Positions 23,754 through 64,000 of a DNA stretch of 64,000 bases are shown piece after piece. The notes under the pieces are model-generated. The model did not search any database. It saw nothing but the letters and a program-made list of their open reading frames with translations, and was not told the DNA's origin. Numbering within the stretch: position 1 is the first letter of the stretch; each line of letters begins with the position of its first letter. The DNA is taken from the NCBI RefSeq assembly GCF_900109615.1, contig NZ_FOIX01000001.1, positions 1 through 64,000 of the forward strand, written 5' to 3'. The stretch comes from Kaistella antarctica. Its GTDB lineage: Bacteria > Bacteroidota > Bacteroidia > Flavobacteriales > Weeksellaceae. The translations under genes and the position numbers were made by a program.

Positions 23754-23778
23754 TTAAAAGAAAAACTGATTTTTATTT

Positions 23779-23884
23779 TAGCCCGGATGGAAGTGTAAAT
23801 CCTTTTTTTGCGCTAGCAGAAAAAGATTGCAACGGACAGCCGGAACGTCATTTGTAAAAAGCAAAAATCTTGTTGCTCCTAAAA
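23779..23884 (+). repeat. Dispersed hairpin element, copy A
   Basis: Starts AGCCCGGATGGAAGTG, continues AAATCC, a hairpin, GATTGCAACGGACAGCC, and ends near GCTCCTAAAA. The hairpin is AATC, a bulged C, TTTTTTTGC / GCAGAAAAA, GATT with a GCTA loop. A second copy (32885-32980) has the same flanking words and the same bulged C but a different stem. Related sequences occur widely in flavobacterial spacers as far as I recall; I know no confirmed function. Confidence 0.6.
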
Positions 23885-32798: not shown

Positions 32799-32884
32799 GA
32801 GCGCAGATGGAATGAGGGAAATAAGATTTTTGGCAGTAGCAAATTGCTGTTGTTTCTGAATTTTAACGGAATCGGTGAAGAAGC

Positions 32885-32980
32885 GCAATCCTGCGTAAGG
32901 GATTGAAGTGGAAATCCTTTTTTATCTTGTCATCAGACGAGATAAAAAAGATTGCAACGGAAAGCCCGACCTGAAAGAGG
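32885..32980 (+). repeat. Dispersed hairpin element, copy B
   Basis: Contains GATTGAAGTGGAAATCC, then a 14-bp hairpin stem (TTTTTTATCTTGTC / GACGAGATAAAAAA, one G-U, ATCA loop) above AATC/GATT with the same bulged C as copy A. GATTGCAACGGAAAGCCCG follows. Compared with copy A the flanks are alike and the stem is different but still paired. Located 120-220 nt upstream of ssrA. Confidence 0.6.
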
Positions 32981-33119: not shown

Positions 33120-33515
33120 GGGGTTGACTGGTTTCGACAGCAAGATCGATGGATAAGTAAGCATGCAGAGAACCGTAGCGCGATCTCTTTAATCCCTTGC
33201 TGCAAACCTTTAACTGGCAACCAAGAGTTCGCTCTTGCAGCTTAATCTGAATAAAGTAGGATTCAAGCGCTCTCCCGAAGATAGTAAGGAGGCAAGATGT
33301 CTCGCAAATGCTCCGTTCTGCGGCGTTTGATTCTGAGGCATAGCAATGCAGAAATAAGTCTCGAAAGACTTCGGTTCGAGATCGAAAACTTAAGAAGTTA
33401 AGCTATAAATTGGGTGTCTGTGCTCTGTTTATAGTCGAAAACCAATCGCAGAATAAGCATGTAGAAACCTTATGTGTTGCTTGTTTGGACGAGGGTTCGA
33501 ATCCCTCCAACTCCA
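33120..33515 (+). ncRNA. ssrA: Transfer-messenger RNA (tmRNA)
   Basis: The 5' end GGGGTTGACTGGTTTCGACAG is split here as GGGGTTG plus the tmRNA hallmark GACTGGTTTCGACAG. The 3' end has the T-loop GGGTTCGAATCCC and the arm CAACTCC pairing with GGGGTTG (one G-U). CCA is not encoded. The tag frame at 33216-33245 reads GNQEFALAA then TAA. The RNA rescues stalled ribosomes with SmpB and marks the broken product for proteolysis. It has its own promoter and terminator. The tag ends in the usual ALAA. Confidence 0.97.
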
Positions 33516-33526
33516 CTTTTTATTTA

Positions 33527-58263: not shown

Positions 58264-61125
58264 TTACTTTAGTTTTTTCTTCACCGAAATCACTTCATAG
58301 ACTTCTAAAATGTCGCCAGCTTCAATATCATTGTAGCCTTTAATATTCAAACCACATTCGTAGCCTTTGGTAACTTCTTTCGCATCGTCTTTGAAACGTT
58401 TCAAACTTTCCAGCTCTCCATCGAATTTCACAATACCATCGCGCAACAGCCGAATTTTTGAGTTTCGCGTCACTTTTCCAGTAAGAACCATACATCCTGC
58501 AATAGTACCGATTTTTGAGATTTTAAATACCTCACGGATTTCTACGTTACCGATGACCTGTTCCTTAATTTCTGGCGAAAGCATTCCTTCCATCGCTTCT
58601 TTAACCTCATCGATAGCGGCATAGATGATAGAATAAGTTCTGATTTCTATTTCTTCTTTGTCGGCTAACTCTTTTGCATTAACACCGGCTCTAACATTAA
58701 ACCCGATCATAATTGCATCTGAAGCTGCTGCTAACAATACATCTGACTCGGTAATCTGACCGACACCTTGGTGAATAATTTTCACACTGATTTCTTCGGT
58801 AGATAATTTTTGAAGTTGATCAGATAATGCTTCCACGGAACCATCCACGTCCCCTTTAAGGATAATGTTTAATTCTTTGAAATCACCCAGAGCAATTCTT
58901 CGTCCGATTTCATCTAGCGTCAAGTGTTTCTTCGTTCTTACAGACTGCTCGCGTTGCAATTGCTCTCTTTTGGTTGCAATTGTTTTCGCTTCTCTTTCAT
59001 CTGCAAATACTCTGAAACGATCTCCAGCAGTTGGTGCGCCATCTAATCCTAAGACCGTAACTGGAATTGAAGGTCCAGCTTCGTTCATTGATTTTCCTCG
59101 TTCATCAAGTAAAGCTTTCACTTTACCGTGATTTTTACCGGCTAGAATATAATCTCCAACTTTTAAGGTTCCTGCTTGTACAAGAATGGTTGAAATGTAA
59201 CCACGACCTTTATCTAAAGAGGCTTCGATTACAACACCACTTGCATTTTTATCTGGATTGGCTTTTAAATCTAATAATTCAGCTTGCAGCAATACTTTCT
59301 CCAATAAGGTGTCCATATTGTTACCAAACTTGGCAGATACTTCTTGCGACTGTACGCTACCGCCCCATTCTTCAACCAAAACATTCATTGCTGACAGTTG
59401 TTGACGAATATTATCTGGGTTAGAGTTCGGCTTATCTACTTTATTAATAGCAATAATCATTGGAACTCCGGCAGCTTGTGCGTGAGAAATTGCTTCTTTA
59501 GTTTGAGGCATCACATCATCATCAGCTGCGATTACGATAATTGCAATATCGGTAATCTGCGCCCCTCTGGCTCTCATCGCCGTAAATGCCTCGTGACCTG
59601 GCGTATCTAAGAATGTAATTCTTTGACCGTCTTCCAACTTCACATTATAAGCACCAATGTGCTGTGTAATTCCACCAGATTCACCGGCGATCACATTTGT
59701 TTTTCTAATATAATCCAGGAGGGAAGTTTTACCGTGATCCACGTGACCCATTACGGTAACGATCGGCGCTCTGAATTCTAAATCCTCGGCAGTATCGGTA
59801 TCTTCTTCTAGGGCAGATTCTTCAACATCAGCATCAGAGAATTCAATAGAATATCCGAATTCATCGGCTACAAGTAACAAAGTGTCAGCTTCTAAACGCT
59901 GATTCATGGTTACCATTACTCCCAAGGAGAAACAAGCAGAAATTACTTCAGTAGGACTAACATTCATTAATGATGCTAATTCCCCAACGGTAATAAACTC
60001 GGTTACTTTAAGAGTTCTGTCAGCTGCATCAATTTCATCTTGACGCTCATCCTGTTCTCTTCTGTAAACTCTTTTCTCTTTTCTATATTTGGCACCTTTA
60101 TTTTTACCGGCCTTGCTTGTCAGTTTTTCTAAAGTTTCCTTAATTTGATTTTTAACTTGCTCGTCCGTCAATTCAACTGGCATTACAGGACCTCTTCTTA
60201 CAGGGCCTCTATTCGCACCACCGCCACCTTGATAACCAGGTCGGTTTCCACCACCACCTTGACCAGGCGGGCGATTGCCTTGACCAGGACCAGGAGGACG
60301 ATTACCTTGACCCGGACCAGGAGGGCGATTGCCTTGAGCAGCTCCACCCGCAGGATTTGGCTTCTCAATACGCTTTCTTTTCTTCTTAGCTGCAGCTGAA
60401 TTTGCAGAAGGTTTTGGTTTATTAAACTGTGATAAATCAACAGTTTGTTTTAGGATTTTCACCCCTTGTAACTGCTTGTATACCGTTTCAATTTTGTCAG
60501 ACTCAGGAGCTTCTTCCGTTTTCGGAGCTTCAGCTTCTGGAGCAGGAGTTGAGACTGGTGCAGCTGCAACAGCTACTTCCTCTATTGTTGGTACAGGTGC
60601 TTTTTCAGCAACAGGTTCGGTAGTTTTGGACTGATCTTTTTTCGAAGATCTCGGCTTATTGCCTTCGATTTTCGATAAATCAATTTTGTCTAAAACTTTG
60701 AATTCCTGCTTTTCAGGAGCAGTTGCTTTTTCAACAACAGGAGTTGCTTCAACTACTGGTTTGGGCTCTTCAGCTGGCGGAGCTGGTTGCTCTGCTTTCA
60801 CTTCAGATTTCTTTTGATCTAAGTCTATTTTACCCAAAATTCTCGTTTCGGGTCTTTGACTTGATCTGGCTCTTATTACCTCAGGTTGCGATGGCTCGAT
60901 TTCCAGTTTTTCTTCCGGAACTTTAGCGATCACTACCTCATGAGAAGCCTTTCTTTGTTCCCCGTCTTTGCGGAACTCAGCTTCTAATGCAGAATATGCC
61001 GATTCGTCCAATTGAGCGTTCGGATTGCTTTCTACCTCGATTCCCTTGGCATGTAGAAATTCTACCAGCCTCGTCATCGAAATATTAAATTCCTTAACTG
61101 CTTTGTTTAATCTAATTTTTGGCAT
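58264..61125 (-). CDS. infB: Translation initiation factor IF-2
   Basis: 953 residues. The G domain has GHVDHGKT (460-467), DTPGHEAF and NKVDKP, followed by domains II-IV of IF-2. The first about 450 residues are a long N-terminal extension: an IF-2N-like start ([20 protein letters not shown] in part), an Ala/Pro/Glu/Lys-rich region, and a Gly/Pro/Asn/Arg-rich block (about 268-310) with three copies of GNRPPGPGQ-like units. It places initiator tRNA on the ribosome. Last gene of the operon; a possible internal -7 element lies at 61158-61165. Confidence 0.97.
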
Positions 61126-61199: not shown

Positions 61200-62447
61200 T
61201 TAATCTTCTAACTCCTCTTTCAGGATACGTTTTACCTCTGCGATGGTTTCTTCTTCCAGATCAGTTATGCTTAAGAGCGCCTCTGTTTCTTTATCTAAAA
61301 TACTTTTCGCAGTATTCAAACCAACTTTACGGAACTCATCAATTATCCACTGTTCGATATCACCTTCTTCAGTTCCTACGAATTCTCTTAATTCAACATC
61401 ATCATCTTCACTCGCTTCTCTATAAACATCGATATCATAACCGCTTAGCCAAGAAGCTAATCTGATGTTTTGACCTTGCTTACCAATCACTCTAGAAATT
61501 TCTTCTACCGGCGTGTAAACCAAGGCGTAGTTTGTTTCTTCGTTGATTTCGATTTTGTTAATGGTGATGTTTCCTAAAGCACGTTTTACCATAATTTCAG
61601 GATTTTTTGACCACTGTATAACGTCGATGTTTTCGTTTTTCAATTCTCTTACCACGCCGTGGATTCTAGAACCTTTCACTCCAACACAAGCTCCAACAGG
61701 ATCAATTCTGTCATCATAAGCATCAACCGCGATCTTCGCTTTTTCACCTGGAATACGAACTACTTTTTTCAAAATAATCGTACCATCTTGGATTTCTGGA
61801 ATCTCCATTTCCAGTAATTTCTCCAAAAATCTTGGTGAAGTTCTGGAAACAATAATCTGAGGTTTAGCTCCTTTAAAATCAACACTCTCTACAATCGCAC
61901 GAATGCTTTCTCCTTTTTTGAAAAAGTCAGAAGGAATCTGATTTTCCTTGGGCATGATGAATTCATTGTCGTCATCATCCAACAAAATAACATGTTTGTG
62001 ACGAATATGATGAACTTCTCCCATAACGATTTCTCCGATTTTATCTCGGAACTGATCGTAAAGAACGGCGTTATTATGTTCCTGAAGTTTAGTCGCTAAA
62101 ATTTGTTTCAGCGTCAAAATGCTTCTTCTTCCTAATTGTTCAATCGGAATTTCTACGGAAAAATCATCCCCAATTTCGAAAGTTGGATCTATTTTTTTTG
62201 CTTCAGAAATTTCAATTTCTAAGTCATCGTCCTCAGACATTTCGTCTGCTACAATTTCTTTATTTAAAAATATCTGAAAATCTCCTTTATCAGGATTTAC
62301 GATAACGTCAAAATGATCATCAGAATCAAACCTTTTTCTTAGTAAAGTTTTCAATGAGTCTTCGATAATCGCCATCAGATCTATCTTGCTGATGTTTTTG
62401 TCTTCTTTGAAATCGCCAAATGCTTCAATCAATGCTAAACCGTCCAT
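61200..62447 (-). CDS. nusA: Transcription termination/antitermination factor NusA
   Basis: 415 residues. N-terminal RNA-polymerase-binding domain, S1 domain (about 130-200: RDKIGEIVMGEVHHIRHKHVILLDDD in parts), and two KH domains (GACVGVKGSRIHGVVREL; VIGKQGQNIRLASWLSGYDIDVY). No acidic C-terminal repeats, as usual outside Proteobacteria. It modulates pausing and termination. Middle gene of rimP-nusA-infB. Confidence 0.96.
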   Translation of the reverse strand: MDGLALIEAFGDFKEDKNISKIDLMAIIEDSLKTLLRKRFDSDDHFDVIVNPDKGDFQIFLNKEIVADEMSEDDDLEIEISEAKKIDPTFEIGDDFSVEIPIEQLGRRSILTLKQILATKLQEHNNAVLYDQFRDKIGEIVMGEVHHIRHKHVILLDDDDNEFIMPKENQIPSDFFKKGESIRAIVESVDFKGAKPQIIVSRTSPRFLEKLLEMEIPEIQDGTIILKKVVRIPGEKAKIAVDAYDDRIDPVGACVGVKGSRIHGVVRELKNENIDVIQWSKNPEIMVKRALGNITINKIEINEETNYALVYTPVEEISRVIGKQGQNIRLASWLSGYDIDVYREASEDDDVELREFVGTEEGDIEQWIIDEFRKVGLNTAKSILDKETEALLSITDLEEETIAEVKRILKEELED

Positions 62448-62552: not shown

Positions 62553-63020
62553 TTAGAACTTTATTGCAACGAGTGCTTTTTTAATATCGGAATACGGGAT
62601 TTCTCTTTCTTCAACAACATCTACTTTTCCCTTTCCTATGTCTTTCGGTTTACGGTATTTTAAAACTAAAGTAATTTTATCCTCTTCCACATTAATCAAT
62701 TCACCTTCAATCTCTGAAGCATCGTTCATTAATAACTCGAGTGATCTTCCAACATTCTTTCGATACTGCCTTGGTGATTTAAGCGGCTCGCTTAATCCAG
62801 CGCTCATCACTTCCATCGAGAAATCATGTTCATCGCGATCCATATTGAATTCAATCGCACGACTCGCATCCAGACAATCTTGAAGAGAAACTCCATCGTC
62901 ACCATCAAGAATTACCCGAATATGATCTGCAGCAGAAAATTTAATATCGATTAAAAAAAGATCTTCTCTTTCTGCTAAAAACTCGTTTAATAATTGCTGT
63001 ATGTGCTCTTTAAATTCCAT
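62553..63020 (-). CDS. rimP: Ribosome maturation factor RimP
   Basis: 155 residues. The N-terminal alpha/beta domain contains LDASRAIEFNMDRDEHDFSMEVMSAGLSEPLKS in parts, with SAGLSEPLKSPRQYRKNVG the RimP hallmark. The C-terminal Sm-like domain contains GELINVEEDKITLVLKYRKPKD in parts. It is needed for 30S assembly. First gene of the operon. A promoter (63096-63126) and a terminator-like hairpin (63045-63070) lie in the leader. Confidence 0.95.
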   Translation of the reverse strand: MEFKEHIQQLLNEFLAEREDLFLIDIKFSAADHIRVILDGDDGVSLQDCLDASRAIEFNMDRDEHDFSMEVMSAGLSEPLKSPRQYRKNVGRSLELLMNDASEIEGELINVEEDKITLVLKYRKPKDIGKGKVDVVEEREIPYSDIKKALVAIKF

Positions 63021-63044
63021 ATCTTACTAAAATTCTCTTACGAA

Positions 63045-63070
63045 AAAAGGCATTCTTCCGAAGGCCTTTT
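63045..63070 (-). promoter_or_regulatory. Terminator-like hairpin in the rimP leader (candidate attenuator)
   Basis: On the minus strand AAAAGGC-CTT-CGG-AAG-AAT-GCCTTTT followed by TT forms a G+C-containing stem with an AAT bulge and a T-run, as in an intrinsic terminator. It sits between the promoter at 63096-63126 and the rimP ATG, with no minus-strand gene before it inside the window. In E. coli this operon is controlled by NusA through leader termination; a similar role here is an inference. Confidence 0.55.
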
Positions 63071-63095
63071 CATTATAATTTCCGTAAATCCGTGG

Positions 63096-63126
63096 CAAAT
63101 ATACACAATATTAATAAAATGACAAA
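63096..63126 (-). promoter_or_regulatory. rimP-nusA-infB promoter
   Basis: TTTG (63123-63126, minus strand) and TATATTTG (63096-63103) are 19 nt apart, a perfect match in both sequence and spacing to the flavobacterial consensus. Transcription should begin near 63090, leaving a leader of about 70 nt. Confidence 0.68.
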
Positions 63127-63179
63127 ATAATTACATTTTATTGAAAGAGTAATAAACAGTCCTACAAATGATTAATTCC

Positions 63180-63187
63180 TATATTTG
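63180..63187 (+). promoter_or_regulatory. -7 element of the UDP-glucose dehydrogenase gene
   Basis: TATATTTG, a perfect TAnnTTTG, 22 nt upstream of the GTG start. No TTG at proper spacing. Confidence 0.5.
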
Positions 63188-63209: not shown

Positions 63210-64000
63210 GTGAATATTACAATCGTTGGAACAGGCTATGTCGGGTTGGTTACCGGAACTACTTTAGCAGAATTGGGCAACACGGTTTATTGTGTTGATA
63301 TCGATGCAAAAAAAGTAGAACGCATGAAGAAAGGAATCGTCCCTATTTATGAACCAGGTCTAGAAGAAATTTTCCTTCGAAATATTCAAGCACAACGTTT
63401 ATTTTTCACCACTGATCTTAAAGAAGCACTCGAAAAAAGTGAAGTTATTTATCTTGCGTTGCCGACTCCGCCTGGCGAAGACGGTTCAGCAGATCTTTCT
63501 TATGTTATTTCGGTAGCCAACCAAATTGGTGATTTGATTACGGATTATAAAGTCATCGTTAATAAATCTACTGTTCCAGTGGGAACAGCCGAGATCGTGC
63601 GAAAAACGATTGCGGCAAAAACAGATGTCCCGTTTGATGTTGTTTCTAATCCAGAATTTTTACGGGAAGGTTTCGCGATTGATGATTCGATGAATCCTGC
63701 GCGAGTCATAGTTGGCAGTGAGTCGGAGAAAGCTCAGGAAATCATGGCAAAAATTTATCAGCCCTTTACCAATATCGGAATTCCAATTATTTTCATGGAT
63801 GAGAAATCGTCTGAATTAACCAAGTACGCAGCCAATTCTTTTCTTGCCGTAAAGATTACCTTTATGAATGAGATTGCGAATTACTGCGAAAAAGTCGGTG
63901 CTGATGTTGATAAAGTTCGTTTAGGAATGGGTTCTGACGACCGAATCGGCCACCGTTTTCTTTTTCCTGGAATCGGTTACGGCGGAAGTTGTTTCCCGAA
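63210..64000 (+). CDS. UDP-glucose 6-dehydrogenase, cut by the window edge
   Basis: 263 full codons are visible and the frame runs off the right edge. NITIVGTGYVGLVTGTTLAE (2-21) is the NAD-binding start, LALPTPPGEDGSADLSYV, NKSTVPVGTAE and NPEFLREGFAIDD follow, and GIGYGGSCFP at the very end carries the catalytic Cys261. It oxidises UDP-glucose to UDP-glucuronate for surface polysaccharide. The start is GTG at 63210; no ATG exists before residue 40. It diverges from rimP. The related UDP-sugar dehydrogenases (for example UDP-ManNAc) cannot be wholly excluded, but the motifs favour UDP-glucose. Confidence 0.92.
   Translation, partial: MNITIVGTGYVGLVTGTTLAELGNTVYCVDIDAKKVERMKKGIVPIYEPGLEEIFLRNIQAQRLFFTTDLKEALEKSEVIYLALPTPPGEDGSADLSYVISVANQIGDLITDYKVIVNKSTVPVGTAEIVRKTIAAKTDVPFDVVSNPEFLREGFAIDDSMNPARVIVGSESEKAQEIMAKIYQPFTNIGIPIIFMDEKSSELTKYAANSFLAVKITFMNEIANYCEKVGADVDKVRLGMGSDDRIGHRFLFPGIGYGGSCFP

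Follow-up and report, generated by a model that had tools for sequence, protein, structure and literature searches.

A terminator in the leader of rimP was described in 2010 under the name rimP-leader (Naville and Gautheret, PMC2965389). The passages of that paper devoted to it report no visible antiterminator, give NusA as the best candidate and name Firmicutes and Gammaproteobacteria, and words beginning with Bacteroidetes or Flavobacter do not occur in its main text. The clearest precedent for control by NusA comes from B. subtilis, where, according to the relevant part of a review, NusA autoregulates through NusA-stimulated termination in its own 5' leader (PMC12288461). In E. coli, the passage concerned places terminators t1 and t2 upstream of rimP and gives NusA a role in regulating its own operon (PMC6511841). 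By reading the E. coli rimP leader directly, we found a hairpin GGGC..GCCC followed by seven T, 5' of rimP. A structured 5' element ahead of rimP was reported from Flavobacterium psychrophilum in 2021; it is present in other Flavobacteriaceae genera and gave no Rfam hit, and the section on rimP in that paper states neither a terminator nor a mechanism (PMC9723704). The first-pass annotation of our sequence had stated that no counterpart was described in Flavobacteriia, which is not right since this element had been reported. Beyond that paper and a B. thetaiotaomicron transcriptome paper whose main text is without rimP or nusA (PMC7366714), our search of open-licence papers returned nothing on rimP-leader termination in Bacteroidota, and little on termination in Bacteroidota.

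We analyzed a window of 64,000 nt from Kaistella antarctica, a genus that the NCBI taxonomy places in the Weeksellaceae, Flavobacteriales. On its minus strand, rimP (62553-63020; Pfam RimP_N and RimP C-terminal domain) is the first gene of the operon rimP-nusA-infB, followed by nusA (61200-62447; NusA_N, KH_5) and infB, encoding IF2 (58264-61125; IF-2, GTP_EFTU, IF2_N), and the leader element lies inside the 5' UTR of rimP. Three anatomical claims of the first-pass annotation, namely a perfect promoter before rimP, a leader hairpin with a T-run and a divergent upstream gene, were all confirmed. First, we located a perfect Bacteroidota promoter, TTTG-N19-TATATTTG, on the minus strand, with the -33 element TTTG at 63123-63126 and, after the N19 spacer, the -7 element TATATTTG at 63096-63103, whose TAnnTTTG is conserved in relatives. 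Second, the leader (63018-63093, minus strand, rimP ATG included), whose start is placed from the promoter, runs for about 70 nt to the ATG at 63018-63020; from 63094 the minus strand reads CACGGATTTACGGAAATTATAATGAAAAGGCCTTCGGAAGAATGCCTTTTTTCGTAAGAGAATTTTAGTAAGATATG. It contains the hairpin AAAAGGC-C-UUC-GGAA-GAA-U-GCCUUUU (63045-63070, minus strand), in which AAAAGGC pairs with GCCUUUU and UUC with GAA around one C.U mismatch, leaving the loop GGAA. A run of six U (63043-63048) ends 22 nt before the rimP ATG; the A-run is a possible pairing partner of 63045-63048, while 63043-63044 can take part in an outer helix that encloses the hairpin, formed by UUACGGA (63081-63087, minus strand) and UUCGUAA (63038-63044, minus strand). 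Third, the gene upstream of the leader is ugd (UDP-glucose dehydrogenase by Pfam), divergent on the plus strand. The leader stretch GGA[T/A]TTACGG may resemble a 16S rRNA stretch.

Some other features of the window were noticed in passing. The sequence TATATTTG also occurs at 63180-63187 (plus strand), shortly 3' of the annotated ugd ATG at 63168; because of this position the true ugd start is probably the GTG at 63210 (VNITIVGTGYVG), which would give a very short leader. Two Flavo-1 RNAs (RF01705) score above the gathering threshold, at 23776-23850 and 32884-32975 (both plus strand); about 145 nt separate the second from the tmRNA gene (33120-33518) that follows it. At the rimP leader itself, an Rfam search gave no match, including with RF01770 (rimP), the family named for this same gene leader. 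RF01770 matched one of 14 control genomes, that of E. coli, and a match to it below the gathering threshold (37.5 bits against 47) was seen elsewhere in the Kaistella genome (L098, G000:C2:357648-357749).

Then, we asked how far the fold of this one leader stands out. The isolated inner stem has a free energy of -8.0 kcal/mol, or -9.8 kcal/mol when the AAAA/UUUU pairs are included, and the fold of the whole leader has a z-score of -1.66, with 12 of 200 shuffled sequences equally stable. Since the whole leader only modestly beats its shuffles, single-sequence folding alone is insufficient as proof; a generic terminator scan of the window also left the rimP-leader hairpin off its list. Conservation, and not single-sequence folding, is what decisively makes the hairpin more than chance. 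With a detector for a hairpin plus U-run at -7 kcal/mol or better, all 36 leaders of the genus were positive. As background we took the 68 genes, within about 462 kb of the Kaistella genome, whose upstream gene is divergent; only one was positive. This control drew on 20 stretches, two of which overlap by 2,250 bases, and excluded the rimP of the window, whose divergent neighbour runs off the window. A promoter-anchored control gave no detector match among only three qualifying genes, too few to be informative. The 3' ends of genes in the same genome provided a scale for strength: 47 of 90 convergent gene ends carry a hit, with a median of -12.8 kcal/mol, and only six of these 47 are weaker than -8.5 kcal/mol. 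At -8.0 kcal/mol by the same measure, the rimP leader stem is weaker than most 3'-end terminators of its own genome.

The first-pass annotation had pointed to close relatives as the place where a spurious hairpin would be missing. All 36 genomes of the genus have RimP, and every one of them carries the hairpin in a nearly identical leader. TAnnTTTG precedes it in 35 of the 36, the remaining sequence (L028) ending before the promoter position. In an alignment of 19 genus leaders picked from the 36 for their differences (A1), 42 columns are invariant, among them TTTTTTCGTA and the TTTTTT of the U-run, and the loop varies across the genus between GGAA, GCAA and GAAA. We also inspected named loci, taking the best 80 of 101; they come mostly from Chryseobacterium, with three from Kaistella and one from a Bacteroidetes MAG, and each of the 80 has the hairpin. 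At the level of the family, a search with model R1 matched 254 of 296 genomes in 24 of 33 genera; in 13 genomes that were searched again there was one strong match per genome, other hits having E values of 5e-4 or worse. In 32 genomes from the other genera of the family, a search found rimP in 31, and in all 30 loci read the order is promoter, hairpin, U-run and rimP. The detector recovered this in 27 of the 29 loci parsed (in L093 it picked an upstream hairpin) and the remainder were judged by eye; in the whole survey the loci judged by eye were L072, L080, L081, L093, L120 and L153.

The same arrangement extends well beyond the family. Of 119 genomes of the order, 81 had rimP, and 67 of the 81 belong to other families. 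We read the rimP loci of 56 of these 67, and hairpin plus U-run was found in every one, 54 by the detector and two by eye (L153, with an N in the loop, and L120, with a U-run of four). In other orders of the class, which we take to be Bacteroidia in GTDB, rimP was present in 110 of 119 genomes, and 66 loci were read of the 106 not already covered. Here hairpin plus U-run was found in 62 of 66, 59 by the detector and three after repositioning (L168, L170 and L184); in L207 the detector chose a different hairpin and the leader hairpin was identified by reading. The four exceptions are L183 and L200, whose hairpins have a poor U-run, and L229 and L230, without such a hairpin. In other classes of the phylum, 15 loci were read from 46 genomes using the upstream region alone, some start codons being uncertain, and each of the 15 shows some hairpin plus U-run in the 150 nt preceding rimP. 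Family, order and class together gave 138 loci for a promoter count, from which L093, L207 and any row whose hairpin fell short of -5 kcal/mol are omitted. TAnnTTTG stands 6-30 nt (median 23) ahead of the hairpin in 136 of them, compared with 6.5% for shuffled sequences. For 106 of 112 loci in order and class, the start codon follows 5-40 nt after the end of the hairpin. These results extend the leader-terminator layout of rimP-nusA-infB to nearly every rimP locus read in the class, from about 60 families. The layout is uniform and takes up very little space, with about 23 nt from promoter to terminator and about 15 nt from terminator to rimP. Two further arrangements were observed in this survey. 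In five of five loci from f83, a family that does not belong to the class (L341, L342, L343, L345 and L348), rimP is preceded by a leader hairpin that looks similar but differs, for example GGTGAGCGTCG..GGCACTCGCTTTTTTTT. In L344, L347, L349, L350 and L351, a tandem pair of hairpins with T-runs lies 5' of rimP, which recalls the tandem rimP-leader of Gammaproteobacteria in the passages describing it (PMC2965389).

The stem itself changes while pairing is kept. Among the 112 stems detected in order and class (L207 omitted, as well as any row whose hairpin fell short of -5 kcal/mol), 104 contain GGG..CCC and 60 contain GGGGAC..GTCCCC, the stems being mostly followed by TTTTTATA or similar; versions include GAGGCACGC..GCGTGCCTC, CAGGGGAC..GTCCCCTG and GATGGGGC..GCCCCATC. 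Family stems are mostly weaker than those in order and class. Because GGG..CCC is found in 104 of 112 stems of other families while the Kaistella stem is AAAAGGC..GCCUUUU, the Weeksellaceae lineage seems to have diverged from the GGG..CCC stem. In 22 class and order leaders every cell is paired and changes on both sides occur in five of eight stem pairs, a count reached by none of 500 shuffles, in a set chosen by folding with a 5-nt loop, which favours pairing. In the family, both-sided changes occur in 11 of 17 pairs, including five of six in the main part of the outer helix, again with none of 500 shuffles as high, in an alignment that had been adjusted to the structure and includes a false row. 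These counts used alignments A5 and A6, both of which lean towards structure, A6 including the false minus-strand row L072. Plain MAFFT alignments (A3, from which L082, L090, L091, L092, L094 and L096 were left out, and A4) were set aside for counting, as variable loops misplaced the stem arms. The outer helix has 97.7% of its cells paired in A1 and is absent from the minimum-energy fold of the single Kaistella leader. Within the genus, no covariation was counted in A1, because the stem hardly varies there; for want of covariation, conservation within the genus could serve something other than pairing. Finally, the class model R2 matched 18 of 21 genomes, and by comparison of coordinates its top match was the rimP leader in 10 of the 18; further hits fell elsewhere in the genomes, so the R2 stem is not exclusive to rimP. 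A search of the Kaistella genome with R2 at E 0.01 gave no match, and against E. coli it gave a weak match, on both strands.

We consider it likely that the leader element is an intrinsic terminator that attenuates rimP-nusA-infB, most likely through the NusA encoded by the same operon. Three observations speak for this: the layout of the leader, its conservation across the class with compensatory changes, and its constant place between promoter and start codon. The first-pass annotation had proposed a likely attenuator of this operon; anatomy and conservation support that proposal, and the functional reading keeps the grade of likely. Transcription would start about 70 nt 5' of rimP and the hairpin would fold once its 3' arm emerges from RNA polymerase. 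The U-run would then cause some transcripts to be released as leader RNAs, about 50 nt long, while the remaining transcripts would read through into rimP, nusA and infB. By eye, we found no complement to the 5' arm that could act as antiterminator in the 20-odd nt 5' of the hairpin. As the stem is weak and the short leader has no antiterminator segment, a factor acting on the paused polymerase probably sets the outcome; this would most likely be NusA, with more NusA leading to more termination. We infer that termination takes place and is partial and, by analogy with other bacteria, that NusA controls it. The operon encodes ribosome-assembly and transcription factors, and a stop signal of this kind would tune how much of it gets copied. 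The compact, uniform layout makes NusA autoregulation directly testable in these bacteria, and the divergent, nearly invariant form of the Kaistella-Chryseobacterium family offers a ready-made comparison of a weak terminator with a strong one in the same position.

The terminator could also be real and respond to something other than NusA, such as RimP, a ribosomal protein, NusG, or pausing alone, a reading that we hold to be a genuine possibility while short of probable. The near-invariance of the leader within the genus is what would be expected of a protein site, and RimP was raised as a hypothetical alternative in the passages on rimP-leader (PMC2965389). However, the operon itself encodes NusA, with the direct precedent of B. 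subtilis, and the stem sequence differs between families while the hairpin is kept, which argues against one strict sequence-specific RNA site.

In the Weeksellaceae, attenuation could instead be coupled to translation, with a ribosome on an AUG frame covering the hairpin and blocking termination, so that the operon would be tied to initiation capacity. An AUG directly adjoins the hairpin on its 5' side in 36 of 36 genus leaders and opens a possible uORF of 11 codons plus stop in the window (63038-63073, minus strand), reading ATG AAA AGG CCT TCG GAA GAA TGC CTT TTT TCG TAA. Within the best 80 of 101 named loci, an AUG lies within 10 nt of the hairpin in all 80, preceded by a variable A-rich spacer. 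In a fixed window 5' of the stem, an AUG was found in 33 of 36 genus leaders against 10.7 expected, a clear enrichment was also seen in the family (19 of 26 against 8.7) and a mild one in the order (26 of 54 against 16.1), whereas there was none in the class (13 of 58 against 17.3). The operon also encodes IF2, as this reading would have it. However, the peptide is not conserved: a frame shift turns MKRPSEECLFS into MGRLRKKAFFR between lineages, the stop codon is lost in two of 36 genus leaders, and the distinct genus substitutions in the frame are seven nonsynonymous and two synonymous. In the best 80 of 101 named loci, 34 frames stop before rimP, 45 overlap its start and one is fused to it. 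In addition, an AUG abutting the hairpin is absent in at least five family loci: L079 (GTG), L087, L090 (TTG), L091 and L095. Since the AUG pairs with CGU in the single-leader fold, it may be a start codon, a structural element or both. We thus regard translation coupling as unlikely. The idea of a leader peptide, which came from MKRPS[EQK]E[CSR]LFS looking conserved in 36 genomes, was downgraded because the frame is shifted in Chryseobacterium with the AUG kept, and at least five family genera are without a hairpin-adjacent AUG. In L112, L114, L117, L121, L124 and L125, a terminator-abutting ATG begins an uninterrupted frame that continues into rimP, which could there lengthen RimP by about 12 residues encoded across the terminator.

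A post-transcriptional role, as a 5' stabiliser of the mRNA or a translational operator of rimP with an incidental U-run, would suit the place of the hairpin near the 5' end and, in 106 of 112 order and class loci, 5-40 nt from the start codon, and the outer helix would be completed only by read-through. Neither role requires a U-run, yet one adjoins the stem in nearly every locus read, and we consider such a role quite improbable.

For the Weeksellaceae we also conceived, as a long shot, that the ancestral strong terminator was rebuilt as a two-state switch, in which the presence or absence of a ribosome starting at the conserved AUG would decide between termination and read-through. The CGU(AA) 3' of the U-run would have two alternative partners, the upstream ACGG, with which it forms the outer helix, and the AUG that precedes the hairpin. 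If this were true, an operon encoding IF2 and NusA would sense translation initiation directly.

That the hairpin arose by chance, or terminates some unannotated transcript at its 3' end, is hardly credible and already largely refuted by the conserved order of promoter, hairpin and start codon. Gene ends do often carry a hairpin with a T-run (47 of 90 convergent ends), but the neighbour is divergent, the promoter is directly upstream in 136 of 138 loci and the background is one in 68.

Compared with the described systems, the preferred reading, a terminator attenuating rimP-nusA-infB, belongs to a kind that is already known, rimP-leader. As described in the passages on that element (PMC2965389), both have a hairpin plus T-run in the 5' UTR of rimP-nusA-infB and, in the general form, no antiterminator; the 22 nt of Kaistella fit its range of 4-130 nt from the gene, and the GGG..CCC stems of the other order and class families are close to its GGGc..gCCC. 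In contrast, the Kaistella stem AAAAGGC..GCCUUUU fails the conserved motif GGGc(...)gCCC (PMC2965389). For the NusA leader of B. subtilis, the part of the review that treats it reports, on experimental grounds, intrinsic termination that governs transcription into the gene and sets the NusA level (PMC12288461), whereas the Kaistella leader is known from its anatomy. The order-wide conservation suggests that the F. psychrophilum element upstream of rimP and the Kaistella leader element may be one and the same. What is new is the near-universal presence of the terminator in the class loci read and its uniform, compact layout, and also the diverged form of the Weeksellaceae, which combines a weaker stem with an outer helix and with an AUG immediately 5' of the hairpin.
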